From assembly GCF_026810225.1 (NCBI RefSeq), contig NZ_CP113865.1, forward strand, positions 1,384,001 through 1,448,000: a stretch of DNA of 64,000 bases, given 5' to 3'. The notes under the pieces are model-generated. The model saw only the letters and a program-made list of their open reading frames with translations, was not told the DNA's origin and searched no databases. Position 1 is the stretch's first letter, and every line of letters starts with the position of its first letter. Source of the DNA: Caldicellulosiruptor morganii (GTDB lineage Bacteria; Bacillota; Thermoanaerobacteria; Caldicellulosiruptorales; Caldicellulosiruptoraceae). The translations under genes and the position numbers were made by a program. Shown piece after piece: positions 3,637 to 62,074 of the stretch.

Positions 3637-4617
3637 TTAGATTTTTTGTTTCTCCTTTCGTCTTTCTTCATATCTATTGTATGCATCTATAATTTTTTGG
3701 ACAAGTTGATGCCTTACAATATCTTGATATGTCAAAAACACAAACTCAATTCCTTCAATGTCTCTGAGTATCTTTGTCACCTGAACAAGTCCTGATTCAA
3801 CACCACTTGGAAGGTCAATCTGAGTTATATCCCCTGTTACTACTGCCTTTGAACCAAATCCCAGTCGAGTCAAAAACATTTTCATCTGCTCAGATGTTGT
3901 ATTTTGAGCCTCATCCAAGATAATAAAAGCATCATCCAGGGTTCTTCCACGCATATAAGCAAGCGGAGCAACTTCTATAATTCCTCTCTCCATATATCTC
4001 TGATAGGCTTCTGTGCCAATCAAATCATGCAATGCATCATAAATTGGTCTTAAATAGGGGTCCACCTTTGTCTGAAGGTCACCCGGTAAAAATCCTAATT
4101 TTTCCCCTGCTTCCACAGCTGGTCTTGTCAGTATAATCTTGCTTATCTCTTTCTTTTTGAGATAATAGATAGCCATTGCCATCGCTAAATATGTCTTTCC
4201 TGTGCCCGCCGGACCAATCCCGAACACAATTGTGTTGTTCATTATAGCTTCAATATACCTCTTCTGCCCAAGTGTCTTGGGTTTTACCTGTTTACCCCTG
4301 TGAGTTATAAATATAACTTCATCCTCTAACTTTCTCACCTCTTCGTCCTCCAGTGTCTCAATAACATACCTTATTGTGTGCTCATCAATGTCCAATTTTT
4401 TCTTCTCCATATCATGTAATATTTTTATTGTTTTTTCTGCCCTTCTGATGCTGTCTAAGCTACTTCCAATAATTTTAATTGCATTATCCCGGAAAACTAT
4501 ATTCACATTCAATAATTCTTCGAGCGTTTTTACCTTAGAATCAAATTCCCCAAAGATGTTCCAGAATTCTCTTGTATCTTCAATACTCACTGTTGATATT
4601 AATCTTTCTTCCAACAA
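3637..4617 (-). CDS. phoH: PhoH-family ATPase
   Basis: A 326-residue PhoH protein. Walker A GPAGTGKT is at 135-142 and Walker B ILDEAQ at 233-238, with the family-typical ILTRPAVEAGEKLGFLPGD and VVTGDITQIDLP segments. PhoH ATPases are thought to act on RNA; in Firmicutes they sit next to ybeY and pgpH, as here, which suggests a link to rRNA maturation, but the precise reaction is unsettled. The start is TTG at 4617 preceded by a strong SD (AGGAGGG, about 8 nt upstream). The stop is one base before the pgpH-like ATG. Upstream lies the decayed yqfD, so phoH is now the first intact gene of the old sporulation-linked operon. Confidence 0.93.
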   Translation of the reverse strand: MLEERLISTVSIEDTREFWNIFGEFDSKVKTLEELLNVNIVFRDNAIKIIGSSLDSIRRAEKTIKILHDMEKKKLDIDEHTIRYVIETLEDEEVRKLEDEVIFITHRGKQVKPKTLGQKRYIEAIMNNTIVFGIGPAGTGKTYLAMAMAIYYLKKKEISKIILTRPAVEAGEKLGFLPGDLQTKVDPYLRPIYDALHDLIGTEAYQRYMERGIIEVAPLAYMRGRTLDDAFIILDEAQNTTSEQMKMFLTRLGFGSKAVVTGDITQIDLPSGVESGLVQVTKILRDIEGIEFVFLTYQDIVRHQLVQKIIDAYNRYEERRKEKQKI

Positions 4618-4639
4618 ATATACCCTCCTGAGTTGTATT

Positions 4640-5430
4640 TTATTTTTTCAGGGTTATGTCTTCTAAACATTCATAATCTCTCATACATACTATACTTTTT
4701 ATTTCGCTTTTCACTTTTTTAATCCTAAAATGCGTCCTTACTTTCGAAATAGCAAGGATTTTCTTATCTTTTGTTTTTCTTTTAAAATCTTCATCACAAC
4801 TTCTTACTAATTCTTTCTTTACCTTTTCTAAATCAAGTATATATCTTTTAAATTCAGACTTTTTTATCTCACATATACCTATCCTGAATAAAAAAAGTTT
4901 ATATTCTTTTATTTTAATTTTATCACAATTCTCATCATTAGTAACCATAATTTTAGGTATAAACTCTCTTTGTCCAATTACAACAAACGGTACCTTTTTT
5001 TGGAGATGTAGACCTTCTGATATGCTGGCAAAGAAAAGCTTTTAGAAACTGAATAAAATGTATTCGCAATTACCTCTGCTATGGCATCTTCATAATACTC
5101 ATTTCCATCTTTTGTAACAACCCTGTTATCAACAAGCAGCTGTCCTTCAACAACAGTATCCCCTTCTTTTACAAGTGCATTTCCTGATTTTAGAGTAAGT
5201 TTTTGTATAACTCCACTGCTTTTTGCAAAAATTTTTTCCTGTTTGTTTTGCAGATTGTCTTTTTCTCTTTTTACATACTCTACTACTAAAAGCCCTCCTT
5301 CCTGCTTTACTTTCACCCACATCAAATCTTCCAACTCAGAAAGAAGCAGCTTTGATACTTTTTCCCGGTCAATATTACTCTTTAACGTAAATGGTTTTAT
5401 TTTGTAGTTTCTCAACTTCTCTTCTATCAT
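4640..5430 (-). pseudogene. yqfD: Remnant of sporulation protein YqfD, 5'-truncated and frameshifted
   Basis: Two consecutive open segments together resemble the middle and end of YqfD. The first (5430 to 4978, 150 residues) begins IEEKLRNYKIKPF and contains KSGNALVKEGDTVVEGQLL, typical of the region just after the membrane helix of YqfD. The second (ATG 4948 to 4640, 102 residues) ends KSIVCMRDYECLEDIT, like the family C-terminus. The frame changes at a run of seven A on the minus strand (plus-strand T 4995-5001); one extra A would join the two without a stop. The N-terminal roughly 130-150 residues, including the transmembrane helix, are missing. Intact YqfD is about 400 residues and is needed for spore development in Bacillus (SpoIVA-related defects). 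Recognition is by motif memory. Confidence 0.72.
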
Positions 5431-5609
5431 CCGTGGATACTTAATGTATTAATTTTAACTATATTTTCTTCATACATAATGAGTCCTTTATGATTCTCTA
5501 CTACTGCCTCATCTTCTTCAATCACTGTAATTTTTGGTTCATTTGTGATTGCTTCTACTGGAAGCTGTGAAACCTGTATCATCTCTTTTAAAACCTTGTG
5601 CTTTTTCAT
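5427..5609 (-). pseudogene. yqfC: C-terminally truncated YqfC-like sporulation protein (60 residues)
   Basis: Residues 14-45 (SQLPVEAITNEPKITVIEED, then VVENHKGLIMY) match the conserved core of YqfC/YabP proteins, where xxELPxDVxxxxPxIxxxGxxxxxIENHKG is typical. The protein stops at residue 60, roughly 30-35 residues short of the usual length. Its TGA overlaps the ATG of the YqfD remnant (ATGA at 5427-5430). The simplest reading is one deletion that removed the end of yqfC and the start of yqfD together. The ATG at 5609 has no convincing SD (only AT-rich sequence upstream), another sign of decay. It may still be transcribed, since no terminator lies between it and phoH. Confidence 0.65.
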
Positions 5610-5680
5610 TTATTAAGAATTCACACCATAAAACAAACACTTCCACCTTTATTCTATTTATACTTGCATAATTTTATAAC

Positions 5681-5711
5681 AAAAAAGTGGTCCCCCTTTT
5701 TGGAGAACCAC
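5681..5711 (-). terminator. Rho-independent terminator of rpsU-yqeY
   Basis: On the minus strand, GTGGTTCTCC (5711-5702) pairs with GGGGGACCAC (5696-5687) with two G-U pairs and an A-rich loop, followed by six T (5686-5681). It lies just past the yqeY stop. Confidence 0.75.
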
Positions 5712-5726
5712 ATGTGCATTCTTTAT

Positions 5727-6176
5727 TTACAATCTTGAAAGGTGCTTTTTCACAAATTCACTCACAACCTTACCTTCTGCCCTGCCACTTACCCTTTGCA
5801 TTACCTCCTGCATAACCTTGCCCATATCTTTCATACCAGAAGGCTTTATTTTTTCTATTACCTCAAGAACTATCTTCTCTATTTCTTCATCTGTCAGCAT
5901 AGGCGGAAGGTATGATTGCAATATCTCAATTTCTCTATTTAATTCTTCAATCAACTCCTGCCTTCCACTTTTTATATACTCTGGCAGGCTGTCTTTCCTC
6001 TTTTTTATTTCCTTTGCAATTACATTTAAAACTCCACTGTCATCAAGTACAGTCCTGTTGTCCTTTTCAAACTGCAATATTGCAGCCCTTACCATACCAA
6101 CAACATTTTTTCTCACAACATCCTTTTCTTTCATAGCAGATTTGTAATCTTCCAATAACTTTTCTTTAAGATTCAA
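5727..6176 (-). CDS. yqeY: GatB/YqeY-domain protein YqeY
   Basis: A 149-residue YqeY protein of normal length. It shows the family pattern of an N-terminal helical region (LLEDYKSAMKEKDVVRKNV) and a C-terminal part with SYLPPMLTDEEIEKIV and MGKVMQEVMQRVSGRAEGK, the latter like the tRNA-binding tail of GatB/GatE. The exact function is unknown; it may help tRNA-dependent amidation. The start is TTG at 6176 with a GGGG-containing SD about 10 nt upstream. It directly follows rpsU, a pairing conserved across Firmicutes, and is closed by the hairpin at 5681-5711. Confidence 0.93.
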   Translation of the reverse strand: MNLKEKLLEDYKSAMKEKDVVRKNVVGMVRAAILQFEKDNRTVLDDSGVLNVIAKEIKKRKDSLPEYIKSGRQELIEELNREIEILQSYLPPMLTDEEIEKIVLEVIEKIKPSGMKDMGKVMQEVMQRVSGRAEGKVVSEFVKKHLSRL

Positions 6177-44592: not shown

Positions 44593-44703
44593 AACTACCT
44601 CCGGAAACTAACAAAATTTTAAATAGCAGTATTTAGGTTTTAAAGAAATAATTTTTTAATAACGATATATAATTTTACCATAATAATTTTATGTCTACTT
44701 AAC

Positions 44704-44733
44704 TTTATATGTGTATTGTAATTTCTCGCTCAA
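44704..44733 (-). promoter_or_regulatory. Possible patatin-gene promoter in the 44593-44865 gap
   Basis: Minus strand: TTGAGC (44733-44728), 18 nt, TATAAA (44709-44704). The surrounding 273-nt gap is AT-rich and holds no gene, RNA or clear terminator that I can support, apart from a weak ACCA-TTT-TGGT hairpin near 44745. Confidence 0.35.
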
Positions 44734-44865
44734 TCATAAAAACAACCAAAATGGTAAATCATTGATGGGCATAAAAAGTTGATACATCGCTTTTAGTCGT
44801 TCTCTAAAATTATAAATTCATTTCATCTTAAAATTAGAAAATTTAAGTGCTGTCAGGCCTATAGG

Positions 44866-46503: not shown

Positions 46504-46704
46504 TTATTGCTTTCCTGCAGCTCTGTTTTCATAATCCTGAATCATTCTCTTTACCATATACCCACCAATCGACCCAGCCTGTCTTGCTGTAAGGTCTCCA
46601 TTATAACCAGGTTTGAGCTGAACACCAATTGAGCTTGCAACCTCTGTTTTTAACTGATCCAACGCCTTTGTTGCCTCTGGAACTAATTTTCTGTTTCTTG
46701 CCAT
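46504..46704 (-). CDS. Alpha/beta-type small acid-soluble spore protein (SASP)
   Basis: The 66-residue protein contains both family blocks: the protease-site region LKTEVASSIGVQL (T20-E21, where GPR normally cuts after Glu in TE(I/F)AxE) and the DNA-binding C-terminal block GDLTARQAGSIGGYMVKRM. Alpha/beta SASPs coat spore DNA. The frame is intact, has its own ATG with an AGAGG SD, and a strong terminator, so it looks functional. This is odd if the organism is a Caldicellulosiruptor, a genus described as non-sporulating, and contrasts with the decayed yqfC/yqfD at 4.6-5.6 kb. A role as a general DNA-binding protein is possible. Confidence 0.93.
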   Translation of the reverse strand: MARNRKLVPEATKALDQLKTEVASSIGVQLKPGYNGDLTARQAGSIGGYMVKRMIQDYENRAAGKQ

Positions 46705-58734: not shown

Positions 58735-58754
58735 TTACTCCATTACCTGGTCAA

Positions 58755-58782
58755 CCAAACTGTGCAAAATTGCACAGTTTGG
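58755..58782. repeat. Perfect 13-bp hairpin at the nadC side of the TnpB element
   Basis: CCAAACTGTGCAA (58755-58767) and TTGCACAGTTTGG (58770-58782) pair perfectly around AA. It lies 21 nt before the nadC ATG, at the expected site of an IS605 right-end hairpin. It might also slow or end transcription into nadC, although no T-tract follows. Confidence 0.75.
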
Positions 58783-59086
58783 CGGCTGGGGTATTTGTAA
58801 TCCGCCATCTCAAGACTTTCCCAGCCCCAGCAGGCGGTATTTGGGAAAGCCATAGCCCCTACCCCAAGAAGTAGGAACTTGCGCCGATTTCCGGTCTCCC
58901 CACTTGCCCTGAAACCAATACCGATTTCAGGACAGACATGTCTCGCAACACCCTGTCAGGGGAGAGTGGCGTCACCACCGCTACCCTGAGAACTCGCCAG
59001 AGATTGTAGCCTGCGCTACAGCTAATCGCACTTGTTCCATCCAGAGGTGCAAATAGCCTCCCTGACTCACTCCCAGAGCTTTGTAT
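58755..59086 (-). ncRNA. Candidate omega/reRNA overlapping the tnpB 3' end
   Basis: From about 59086 to 58755 the DNA is clearly richer in G+C than its AT-rich neighbours and full of short inverted repeats: CCTGAAA/TTTCAGG (58909-58930 region), AGACATGTCT (58934-58943), CTTTCCC/GGGAAAG (58815-58849), GGCGG/CCGCC (58781-58806), GGCTGGG/CCCAGCC (58784-58826) and the terminal 13-bp hairpin. TnpB guide RNAs come from this position: overlapping the 3' end of the gene and running to the element end, with the guide read from the flank. Here the flank would be the nadC start. This is inference from position, composition and structure; no covariance search was possible. Confidence 0.5.
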
Positions 59087-60337
59087 CTTACGCATTACAT
59101 ATTCAATTTCTTTTATCTGTTTCCTTCTCAAGTGTATATTCTTAACTTCTTTGCTTACATACTCTTTTAGCTCTTCTAAACTACTTACATCAAGACTATT
59201 TAAAAGCTTCATGTAGTTTGCAGGTATCCTCTCTTTTTTCCCAAGTCCTCTTCTTGCTATCACATATGCGCTTGCAACATCTTTGCTTACCATAAACTGC
59301 GGTGCGAACTTCAGCATCCCTATCACTGATGTATATGCAGGATTTACTTCTATAACCTCTATCCCTTCTCGTTTTGCTAAAATCTTGATTTTGTCAAGAA
59401 GCGACCTGTAGCTGAAAAAGTGCCTTATCCGTCTTGATTTTCTGAAAGAAAAATCTCCTCTTTGCCCTTTGTCTTTTATATCAAGCCTCTCTATCACAAT
59501 AGCTTTTCTTTTCTCTTTTGCAATCTTCACAATCTCATGCGCATACTGCCATCTGTAATACTCTCTTTTGTCAGAGTTTCCACTGTCAAGCTCCGGCATT
59601 GGAATCTTGCCATGGCTTATAAACTGTCCGCTTCTGTCCACCTCTACCCATGCCATGTGATTTGGATATGCGTTTGTATCTATCCCTATAGCACCGTTTT
59701 CTCTGGTGATTTCTGTCGCCGGAAAGAGTTTTTCTGCTGAAAAGTAAGCATACACATTCCCATTTTTGAGTTTTAGCTCTACAGAATAAGGCACTCCAAG
59801 AATAGCAATCTCCTGTAAAATTTCTTCTTTGTTTTTGTCTTTTTTAAAACCGGCTGACAATCTGGCAAATACATACTTTCTATCTCCTATATTTATCCTC
59901 AAAAATGTGCCTCTTTCATTTGTCACAATCCTTGTGTTTAAGTTCCCTTTCTTGCTCCTGTCTCCTCTTGAATATAAATTCCCTCTCCTCTTTTCCTGCC
60001 ACTCAATCTTGAGCTTTTTATAAGGCTTTCCATTCATATGCCGCTTTTTGAGCTTTTCAAAAAGCTGCCTGCCACCAAAGATAGCTTTCCTTGGGTCTTC
60101 CCCTCTTTGCTTGCAGGACTCTAAAACACCCTTTGCTTTCATTATTGCATCATCTACATATCTTGAGTTCAAATTGAAAATCCCCTGCAAATCTTTTTTG
60201 AGATTATTTCTATCAAAGCCTTCTAAAAGCCTTTTATATGCAAATCTCATGCACGAAGACCATCTTCTCATAAGCTCCAGTACCTTTTGCCTGTCTTCAT
60301 AACTTTCAAAAATAAGCTTGGCCTGAACTGTTACCAC
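58859..60337 (-). CDS. tnpB: TnpB/OrfB-family RNA-guided nuclease lacking the zinc finger
   Basis: The 492-residue protein has a helical N-terminus (LMRRWSSCMRFAYKRLLEGF), a beta-rich wedge region, and a split RuvC fold: GAIGIDTNAYPNH (D220), KAIVIERLDIKDKG (E283) and MVSKDVASAYVIARRGLG (D353). All three acidic residues are present, so it should be active. Typical TnpB has a four-Cys zinc finger between RuvC-II and RuvC-III; residues 283-353 contain no Cys at all. The last roughly 75 residues (from S420) are encoded by GC-rich DNA unlike the rest and look like read-through of a structural RNA. GTG start at 60337 with AGAGGTG SD. TnpB uses an RNA made from its 3' end to cut DNA near the target motif. 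Confidence 0.9.
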   Translation of the reverse strand: MVTVQAKLIFESYEDRQKVLELMRRWSSCMRFAYKRLLEGFDRNNLKKDLQGIFNLNSRYVDDAIMKAKGVLESCKQRGEDPRKAIFGGRQLFEKLKKRHMNGKPYKKLKIEWQEKRRGNLYSRGDRSKKGNLNTRIVTNERGTFLRINIGDRKYVFARLSAGFKKDKNKEEILQEIAILGVPYSVELKLKNGNVYAYFSAEKLFPATEITRENGAIGIDTNAYPNHMAWVEVDRSGQFISHGKIPMPELDSGNSDKREYYRWQYAHEIVKIAKEKRKAIVIERLDIKDKGQRGDFSFRKSRRIRHFFSYRSLLDKIKILAKREGIEVIEVNPAYTSVIGMLKFAPQFMVSKDVASAYVIARRGLGKKERIPANYMKLLNSLDVSSLEELKEYVSKEVKNIHLRRKQIKEIEYVMRKIQSSGSESGRLFAPLDGTSAISCSAGYNLWRVLRVAVVTPLSPDRVLRDMSVLKSVLVSGQVGRPEIGASSYFLG

Positions 60338-60369
60338 GTTTTTTTACACCTCTTATTAAGGCTCTTCTG

Positions 60370-60427
60370 CTGGTAGCATACATATTACCAACCTTTTGCA
60401 CACAGAATAACTTTCAATGCTACCCAG
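60370..60427. repeat. Imperfect inverted repeat upstream of tnpB, possible left-end hairpin
   Basis: CTGGTAGCAT (60370-60379) pairs with ATGCTACCCAG (60417-60427) as ten base pairs with one bulged C, separated by 37 nt. It sits between the nadB stop and the tnpB SD and may form the left-end recognition structure. Confidence 0.5.
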
Positions 60428-60457
60428 TCAAAATTATACATTTTTGCATTGTAATTC

Positions 60458-62074
60458 TCAACTGTTGCACTCCTCCCATCCATTCAAAGAAAACACAAGA
60501 TGCTTTTTCCAATTAACATCGTCCTGATAGGGAAAATCTTCTCTGTAATGAGAGCCTCTGCTTTCTTTTCTCATCAGTGCACCAGATGCAATTACGTATC
60601 CAATCATAAGCATGTTGTAGTATTCTATTTGCTTTGCTGTTTGAAGTTTTACTTCATTCAGAACAGATAATTTATTTAAAATATATTTAATTAAGCTTTC
60701 AAGTCCTTCTTCATTCCTAACAATTCCAGCAAACTCGCTCATCTTTGACCTTAAAATTTCCACCTCAGAAATTACATCTTCTTTAAACTCTTTAAAATTT
60801 TTGCCGAAGTAACTGAAATCATTTTCTTTTAACTCTCCAATATTGCTGTTATTGATATAGTTTGCTATCCTCCTTCCAAAAACCAGGCCTTCTAAAAGTG
60901 AGTTTGAAGCAAGCCTGTTTGCACCATGTACGCGCGTTCCTGCAGCTTCACCACATACAAACAAGTTCTCAATTGTAGTCCTTCCAAATTCATCTGATAA
61001 AACCCCACCCATACTGTAATGCTGAGCAGGTGCAACAGGAATCCTCTCTTTTGTTATATCCAAACCAAGACTCAGGCATGTTTTATATATGTTTGGAAAT
61101 CTCTCTTTAATAAACTGACTGTCAAGATGGGTTATGTCCAGAAAAACATTCTGCGAGTTTGTTTTTTTCATCTCAAAATATATGGACCTTGAAACAATAT
61201 CGCGCGGTGCAAGCTCTGCCTGTGGATGATATCTGGGCATAAATCTTTCGTTATTGATATTATAAAGAATCCCGCCCTCGCCTCTCACAGCCTCTGAAAT
61301 CAAAAAACTTTTGTTCTTTTCATGGTATAACACTGTTGGATGAAATTGCACAAATTCCATATCAATCAGCTTTGCACCGCACCTCAAAGCTGCTGCACAA
61401 CCATCCCCAGTTGTCACTTCAGGGTTGGTAGTGTATTTATATAAATATCCATAACCGCCAGATGCAAGCACAATGTATTTCGCAAGTATTATGAGATTTT
61501 TCCCATTCTTCTTAAGCAAAACTCCAAGTGCTTTTCGTTCGCCAGTTGTCAGAATGTCAACAAGAAAGGCATTTTCAAAAACGGTTACATTATCATATGA
61601 CCTCAGTTTTAATCCAAGGTGTTCAGAAATTATTCTCCCGGTTGCATCACCGCTTGCATGGACAATTCTTCTTCTGCTGTGTGCACCCTCCTGACCCAGC
61701 ACAATTTCTCCTTCATCATCTAAATCAAATGGTATGTTCATGTTGAGTAAAATATTTATGTTTTCAATCGCCTCATCAACCAGGATTCTTACCATGTAAC
61801 CATCGCAAAGCCCTGCTCCTGCCTTTATAGTGTCCATATAATGAATGTCAGGGCTGTCATCCTGACTGAGTGGCGCTGCAATTCCGCCCTGAGCCAGGGT
61901 TGTGTTACTTATCTGAATACTTTCCTTTGTCACAAGAGCTATATTTAAAGACCTGTCAAGGTTAATAGCCGTATAAAGTCCTGCAACCCCCGTCCCTACA
62001 ATAACAACATCAAATTTTAGAACTTCATCACTTTTTGTATCAAAATCAACACAATATCTTTTAAATTCAATCAA
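60458..62074 (-). CDS. nadB: L-aspartate oxidase
   Basis: About 538 residues; it oxidises aspartate to iminoaspartate for quinolinate synthesis. The FAD-binding VVIVGTGVAGLYTAINL, the NTTLAQGGIAAPL block, the HSRRRIVHASGDATGRII region, MEFVQFHPTVLYHE and GEAAGTRVHGANRLASNSLL are all present. TTG at 62074 is chosen because GGGG lies about 9 nt upstream; ATG at 62083 adds three residues and is nearly as likely. It follows nadA by about 25 nt. The TnpB element begins about 30 nt after its stop. Confidence 0.95.
   Translation of the reverse strand: MIEFKRYCVDFDTKSDEVLKFDVVIVGTGVAGLYTAINLDRSLNIALVTKESIQISNTTLAQGGIAAPLSQDDSPDIHYMDTIKAGAGLCDGYMVRILVDEAIENINILLNMNIPFDLDDEGEIVLGQEGAHSRRRIVHASGDATGRIISEHLGLKLRSYDNVTVFENAFLVDILTTGERKALGVLLKKNGKNLIILAKYIVLASGGYGYLYKYTTNPEVTTGDGCAAALRCGAKLIDMEFVQFHPTVLYHEKNKSFLISEAVRGEGGILYNINNERFMPRYHPQAELAPRDIVSRSIYFEMKKTNSQNVFLDITHLDSQFIKERFPNIYKTCLSLGLDITKERIPVAPAQHYSMGGVLSDEFGRTTIENLFVCGEAAGTRVHGANRLASNSLLEGLVFGRRIANYINNSNIGELKENDFSYFGKNFKEFKEDVISEVEILRSKMSEFAGIVRNEEGLESLIKYILNKLSVLNEVKLQTAKQIEYYNMLMIGYVIASGALMRKESRGSHYREDFPYQDDVNWKKHLVFSLNGWEECNS

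Follow-up and report, generated by a model that had tools for sequence, protein, structure and literature searches.

Remnant of the spore gene pair yqfC-yqfD in Caldicellulosiruptor morganii and the state of sporulation genes in its relatives

We analysed a stretch of 64,000 nucleotides from the chromosome of Caldicellulosiruptor morganii (the window; positions are those of the window unless a contig position, C1, is given). The gene order yqfC-yqfD-phoH is typical of spore formers such as Bacillus subtilis. In the window, the same order of the same families is found on the minus strand, where three remnant open reading frames lie between two genes that we take, by sequence, to be yqeY (upstream of yqfC) and phoH (Table 1). 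Unlike in B. subtilis, yqfC lacks its C-terminus, and yqfD lacks its N-terminus and is frameshifted.

Table 1. Features of the window discussed in the text
Feature	Position	Strand	Description and basis
phoH, intact downstream gene	3637-4617	-	91-95% identical in 11 other genomes of the genus
C-terminal part of YqfD, in a different frame and with 6 bases lost in frame	4640-4948	-	102 aa; tblastn and alignment
YqfD middle without N-terminal membrane part	4978-5430	-	150 aa; PF06898 match, alignment, hydropathy
A7 run with 1 base missing at or beside it compared with relatives, yqfD frameshift	4995-5001	-	alignment and sequence
yqfC remnant	5427-5609	-	60 aa; 56 of about 97 codons kept from the start, then a short tail at the junction; TIGR02856 match and alignment to relatives
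Deletion junction	5431-5447	-	about 460 bp gone; four-genome alignment
Element upstream of yqfC	5645-5683	-	conserved in 12/12 genomes (alignment); candidate promoter
Intrinsic terminator of upstream gene yqeY	5687-5711	-	strong; similar hairpin sequence in relatives
ylbJ remnant, spore cortex gene, mostly deleted	44650-44865, approximate	+	G008 orthologue TIGR02871 spore_ylbJ; alignment
Small acid-soluble spore protein gene, intact	46525-46695	-	PF00269 98.8 bits, highest of 12 genomes

The 60-residue frame matches the NCBIfam YqfC model TIGR02856 (E 3.6e-12, profile positions 4-50 of 85), and it stands upstream of yqfD and phoH, in keeping with the gene order within the genus. Its 46 bits lie below the curated cut-off of 77.8 bits and the profile is covered in part, as for a truncated relative. 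The 150-residue frame matches the Pfam YqfD family PF06898 (E 3.1e-33, profile positions 119-268 of 379; 115.6 bits, cut-off 25.2) and TIGR02876 (E 7.3e-30). Against the NCBIfam equivalog it scores 104.2 bits, under a cut-off (256.7) that the intact YqfD of genome G005 also fails to reach (185.3). The 102-residue frame gave no family match at E 0.1 or better and no tblastn match in the single sister-genus genome searched (G012). By tblastn it is 46-69% identical to the region encoding the YqfD C-terminus in all 11 other genomes of the genus. The family matches to TIGR02856 and PF06898, together with the tblastn matches to relatives, ruled out that these frames are unrelated to YqfC and YqfD.

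Aligning the locus with those of genomes G011, G005 and G008, we find a single gap of about 460 columns, which opens at codon 56 of yqfC and closes near codon 112 of yqfD. Through this deletion yqfC lost its final 41 codons and yqfD its initial ~112, and the two remnant frames now overlap in ATGA (5427-5430). Because the flanks have diverged, the exact ends are uncertain by some 10-15 bp. No clear repeat was seen at the junction. The sole strongly hydrophobic stretch of YqfD sits in the deleted part (mean hydropathy over 19 residues of 3.13, from residue 89 in the G005 frame), and the best 19-residue value in the retained pieces is 0.85. In place of an N-terminal membrane helix followed by one uninterrupted frame, the C. 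morganii yqfD shows the loss of these codons and a frameshift at the A7 run, with the 6-base in-frame loss further on. A preliminary description of this DNA, made from its letters, had read the locus as a yqfC cut at about 60 residues and a yqfD without its N-terminal membrane part, meeting in the ATGA overlap, with the YqfD C-terminus in another frame and one deletion of several hundred bases behind the junction. The reading frames, profiles, hydropathy and the single alignment gap bear out each of these points, and the deletion ends given above come from the alignment to three close relatives.

Genome-wide searches ruled out an intact yqfC or yqfD elsewhere in C. morganii: the whole genome gives one YqfD match, with no intact second yqfD, and no second YqfC is found besides the paralogue YabP. 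We compared 12 genomes of the genus, one per species and C. morganii included, and took the one genome of the sister genus, G012, as a further reference. Full-length frames of both genes are present in 10 of the 12 (yqfC 101-119 codons and yqfD 382-387 codons, stop to stop) and are also open in G012 (92 and 405 codons). The ~460-bp deletion is confined to C. morganii within this sample. Profile searches and alignment ruled out the same deletion in the other 11 genomes, and the search for a shared junction that the preliminary description had suggested thus came out negative. The remaining genome, that of the sister species G011, also has a broken pair. Unlike in C. morganii, its yqfC carries a TGA nonsense codon and its yqfD a single 1-base frameshift, with no deletion.

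The YqfC and YqfD proteins of the genus are divergent. YqfC exceeds the NCBIfam cut-off of 77.8 bits in eight of the ten intact genomes and falls under it in G008 (74.0) and G005 (71.2). The ten intact YqfD proteins score 179-212 bits against PF06898, compared with 281-417 for most full-length matches in the other genomes searched. Lower-scoring matches outside the genus are those of G012 (204.8) and G043 (134), and the G049 match is in two pieces. A separate scan of genome contigs with the YqfD alignment yielded nine loci from distant Bacillota, none of them from the genus.

Besides the yqfC-yqfD pair, the window contains two more spore genes, ylbJ and a gene for a small acid-soluble spore protein (SASP). 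Three of these four are decayed (the SASP gene is whole) versus none of the 59 other counted ORFs, a split with a chance of ~1e-4 (about 1 in 10,000) by hand arithmetic. The count was based on G008 ORFs of at least 65 codons, taken stop to stop and overlap-filtered, over the G008 stretch that matches the window, and an ORF was called unbroken when one tblastn segment covered at least 80% of it. G008 ORFs of up to 100 codons without any match are absent from the list, so losses of very short genes could escape. The 59 + 4 count leaves out o0-o6 and o73, which lie on or outside the edge of the window; o24 (84% covered) and o55 (63%), which have no Pfam match and are probably wrong frames; and o53, a recombinase-like ORF missing from both species. 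The ylbJ remnant was found solely through the comparison with the G008 stretch, and about 15% of the gene is covered in the window. The G008 orthologue matches TIGR02871 with E 8e-74 and 248.8 bits, under the curated 304.65. In the sister species ylbJ is frameshifted, and all four spore genes of the window are damaged. At about 58735-60472, the window also has an extra ~1.7 kb separating two genes that stand side by side in G008 and in the sister species.

Sporulation genes elsewhere in the genome tell a similar story. SigE, SigF, SigG and SigK gave no match in C. morganii in one SigG-profile search; the absence of SigF and SigK is read from that single search, in which no genome reaches the curated cut-off of 457 bits. 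All four have open frames in the ten genomes other than C. morganii and its sister. SigG and SigF are open in 11 of 12 genomes, the sister's SigF with a 1-base loss near its 3' end, and whole SigE and SigK are found in 10 of 12, the sister's SigE being altered near the C-terminus and its SigK having two TAG codons. The sigma labels were verified with NCBIfam on examples (SigE and SigG of the sister, SigF and SigK of G008). The sigma factors kept in C. morganii are a SigA-like one, a SigB-like one (common to all 12 genomes) and two others. SpoIIIAE is intact in 10 of 12 genomes, split in the sister species and without a match in C. morganii. SpoIVA is likewise intact in 10 of 12, frameshifted in the sister and without a match in C. 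morganii.

Several of these losses left scars. SpoVAD is whole in 9 of 12 genomes; the sister's gene has two 1-base losses, and that of C. morganii has lost some 400 bp from its interior. In relatives AAAAATC, read by eye, flanks this deletion at both ends, as in repeat-mediated deletion, which may be how it arose. The spoVAD gene of G001 (C1:2782666-2783659) lies in two frames, which is either a sequencing error or the beginning of decay in a third species. In the spoIIIA operon, 4.3 kb of sister-species sequence correspond to ~390 bp in C. morganii; a spoIIIAH stub is left, both flanks align at 86-87%, and the scar encodes a DDE transposase fragment (PF01609, E 3.8e-10; C1:1022641-1023005). 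At spoIIGA-sigE-sigG, 2.56 kb are reduced to 52 bp, and on one side the alignment extends about 70 bp into the end of sigG, so that the sigG residue is a short stub at most. The preliminary description had proposed looking for other decayed sporulation genes, and ylbJ, spoVAD, spoIIIA and spoIIGA-sigE-sigG are decayed or excised in C. morganii. Its view that this lineage lost sporulation is supported by the missing matches to the four sigma factors, SpoIIIAE and SpoIVA and by the broken spoVAD and ylbJ. The loss of sporulation in C. morganii is thus well supported.

Two neighbouring observations concern the sister species. A murA-like gene (one piece matches the EPSP synthase family) in the division gene cluster is broken there and gives no match at that place in C. 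morganii; its function in both species is presumably served by a second copy. The sister's spoVAD (C1:45125-46115) shares 97.8% identity with the G005 gene, and its sigF 96%, and the values are 78% for spoIVA, 82% for spoIIIAE and 87% for sigG. Judging from these identities, its spoVAD and sigF, both with 1-base losses, were possibly gained by recombination and then broken.

Some spore genes are still whole in C. morganii. All 12 genomes have an intact Spo0A. The yabP and yabQ genes are intact in C. morganii (C1 about 2005180-2005790) though other cortex genes are lost; their neighbours are presumably hup-like and divIC-like genes. YabP is split over two frames in the sister species. C. morganii has two SASP genes, the second intact one at C1:1085363-1085530, and each of the other 11 genomes has three; one is truncated in the sister species and one in G001. 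Intact SASP genes in a genome without SigG, SigF, SpoIVA and SpoIIIAE matches may serve DNA protection outside spores or may not yet have decayed. Non-spore DNA protection by SASPs was suggested by Galperin 2012 (PMC3533761).

Assembly errors are a very improbable source of the deletion or the frameshifts. The closed C. morganii genome is described in PMC10019236 as a nanopore assembly, a kind prone to 1-base homopolymer errors, and the yqfD frameshift falls in an A7 run. However, the same paper reports polishing with Illumina reads, a 460-bp deletion and multi-kb excisions are unlike homopolymer errors, and all 59 of the other counted window ORFs are unbroken.

We conclude that the locus is very probably dead, a remnant of the spore-cortex genes yqfC and yqfD, and that the species lost endospore formation recently. 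As in a pseudogene formed by recent loss, the frame is disrupted, close relatives have intact orthologues, and other genes of the pathway are lost too. The two genes were fused by one ~460-bp deletion, and the rest of the yqfD frame is disrupted by a 1-base loss. Since the membrane anchor is gone, the YqfD piece can hardly do its former job, and since the genome has no SigE match, SigE cannot express the pair. With the compartment sigma factors lost, the cortex, engulfment and coat genes would have become useless, and deletions in them may have been tolerated or favoured. Spore genes are not all decaying, as the intact Spo0A, YabP, YabQ and two SASP genes show, and this counts against the dead-remnant reading.

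The B. subtilis genes yqfC and yqfD belong to the SigE regulon and have a role in sporulation (PMC4703394); the efficiency column of the mutant table there gives 0 for yqfD and 72.9 for yqfC. Both genes are also called truly SigW-regulated, through read-through from an operon upstream of them (PMC3498285), so a role outside sporulation is conceivable. A spore role in the genus is favoured because the two genomes in which the pair decays are also those in which purely sporulation genes do. Asporogenous Bacillota with decayed spore genes (Galperin 2012, PMC3533761; PMC12890906) are alike in that, as far as these accounts go, spore-specific genes are deleted or frameshifted and their neighbours intact. 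Unlike in asporogenous Bacillota in general, the loss in C. morganii is judged recent and affects two sister species within a genus classed as asporogenous throughout.

To date the loss, we fitted a codon model with a separate omega for each of the tips C. morganii and G011. On the C. morganii branch the yqfCD remnant showed an omega of 0.117 versus 0.135 for the background, so no relaxed selection was seen on this branch by the codon model. Forcing omega to 0.20, 0.25 or 1.0 cost 3.3, 6.4 and 34.6 units of 2dlnL, respectively, and values of 0.25 and above are rejected. By piece, the values were 0.163 for yqfC, 0.119 for the YqfD middle and 0.089 for the YqfD C-terminal part, the latter two significantly below 1 (2dlnL 16.6 and 14.4). 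When G011 was omitted, joining stem and tip, the yqfCD remnant had an omega of 0.129 and the spoVAD remnant 0.137 (versus 0.077), each with an upper limit between 0.2 and 0.3. Relaxation was detected in a positive control, the spoIVA of the sister species (0.297 versus 0.063, 2dlnL 18.3). The sister's sigG (0.102 versus 0.027, 2dlnL 4.9) was nominally significant, and its spoIIIAE (2dlnL 2.9) and sigF (2.1) were above background, not significantly. Its yqfCD had an omega of 0.25, and 1.0 was rejected marginally only (2dlnL 4.2). An omega from the SASP alignment was set aside, as the tree length was 10.6 and the loci were in mixed orientations, with wrong frames probably taken.

Low omega would be equally expected if the remnant peptides still functioned, and this too speaks against reading the remnant as dead. 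The YqfD middle domain, perhaps with the coupled YqfC stub, would then be a useful peptide selected for a non-spore role. The significantly low values of both the middle and the C-terminal piece, the ATGA overlap, as in translational coupling, and the SigW control reported for B. subtilis (PMC3498285), which hints at a non-spore role, fit such an idea. However, the spoVAD remnant of the same genome is plainly dead and also has a low omega, so the low value is due to recency. The out-of-frame C-terminal piece is no less conserved than the middle one, YqfD has lost its membrane anchor, and the sister species breaks the pair differently. We therefore regard continued peptide function as improbable and retain the dead remnant.

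As no relaxed selection is seen in the remnant, the loss looks recent. If dead sequence evolves at an omega of 1, we infer that at most about one tenth to one quarter of the branch has elapsed since the loss. The substitution patterns suggest that the locus was under ordinary purifying selection for most of the species' own branch, and the loss would then be late and independent of that in the sister. The preliminary description's lost lineage therefore stands as to the loss of sporulation genes and fails as to the old timing it implied, as the deletion is found in C. morganii only, 10 of 12 genomes are intact and the loss is recent.

C. morganii and G011 are sisters, with an ultrafast bootstrap of 100 on phoH, yqeY and yqfF, and of 99 on two genes with G012 as outgroup. 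This raised the question of whether sporulation was lost a single time in their common ancestor, with different decay afterwards. The sister relationship itself, and the fact that yqfC, yqfD, ylbJ, spoIIIAE, spoIVA, spoVAD, SigE and SigK are broken or absent in both, would agree with a single loss. However, no lesion common to the two was seen in yqfC, yqfD, spoVAD or ylbJ, and an old loss would show as a raised omega along the full C. morganii branch, which is not observed. Two separate, recent losses fit best, and a single ancestral one is unlikely.

We also looked at how phoH may be transcribed. No further terminator-like site was found between the yqeY terminator and phoH within 4500-5800. 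Since this terminator precedes yqfC and the element beyond it is kept in 12 of 12 genomes, the sequence suggests that phoH transcription probably begins beyond the yqeY terminator. The element resembles an ATA...ATAnnnTA arrangement, presumably that of SigE/SigK-type promoters; if SigE-dependent, it would be dead in C. morganii, and phoH would therefore need another start. As the preliminary description had inferred, the remnant may persist as a transcribed leader between a promoter upstream of yqfC and phoH, a tentative proposal that is compatible with the dead-remnant explanation and that the strong terminator, the run to phoH free of others and the conserved element make possible. However, the promoter scan was no better than chance (4 promoter-like matches on both strands versus 5.3 expected), a promoter inside yqfD just before phoH is another possibility, and the pieces are conserved in step with their codon structure, as expected for a recently lost gene.

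The remnant itself is an ordinary pseudogene; it is the genus-level pattern that deserves an experiment. Single omegas were estimated for the other clade, using eight genomes (seven in the case of spoVAD). The values were 0.032 for sigG, 0.068 for spoIVA, 0.069 for sigF, 0.085 for spoVAD, 0.143 for spoIIIAE, 0.188 for yqfD and 0.269 for yqfC, and those of the housekeeping neighbours 0.026 (phoH), 0.080 (yqeY) and 0.076 (yqfF). The values of sigG, sigF, spoIVA and spoVAD (0.03-0.09) thus fall within the range of the three neighbours (0.03-0.08). The yqfC, yqfD and spoIIIAE genes are looser than these neighbours, yet far below 1. As all omegas are far below 1, the spore genes are being kept in these genomes. 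The tested spore genes in the ten other genomes are whole (spoVAD in G001 excepted) and under purifying selection. Intact spore genes under selection are not what one expects of a genus with an ancient loss of sporulation, and the low omegas rule out an old genus-wide loss.

The order of Caldicellulosiruptor has been termed asporogenous (PMC10434631). Against this label, we propose that most 'asporogenous' Caldicellulosiruptor/Anaerocellum species still carry out an endospore or spore-like programme, under selection and unseen in culture, which C. morganii and its sister G011 lost separately and recently; we consider the chances of this close to even, though short of it. If it is true, the two species are a natural control. 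The C. morganii remnant serves as a clock and a control, showing what lost spore genes look like, and the ten other genomes differ from it. As ten genomes hold selected, whole spore genes, the asporogenous statement, with its consequences for dispersal in hot springs, becomes directly testable. The main evidence against sporulation in the genus is that no spore has been reported: the literature searched, with limited coverage of subscription journals, yielded the asporogenous label and no spore observation.

Galperin 2012 (PMC3533761) had already noted the spore gene set of the genus and offered recent loss or untried conditions as explanations; new here are the selection measurements, two species in which the set is really lost, and the finding of spoIIIAF and yabQ. 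In the part of that survey on which we draw, the genus is given as missing ftsA, spoIIM (some), spoIIIAB (some), spoIIIAF, spoVK, spoVR, yabQ and yyaC. Any of spoIIM, spoVK, spoVR, yyaC and ftsA could be a missing essential part. By tblastn, we find SpoIIIAB and SpoIIIAF in all ten intact genomes. The G008 proteins score over the Pfam cut-offs (62.8 versus 32.5 for SpoIIIAB, 54.7 versus 28.3 for SpoIIIAF), and its SpoIIIAF is under the NCBIfam cut-off (37.8 versus 61.3). YabQ is present in five of five genomes examined and exceeds both the Pfam and the NCBIfam cut-offs in G008 and in C. morganii.
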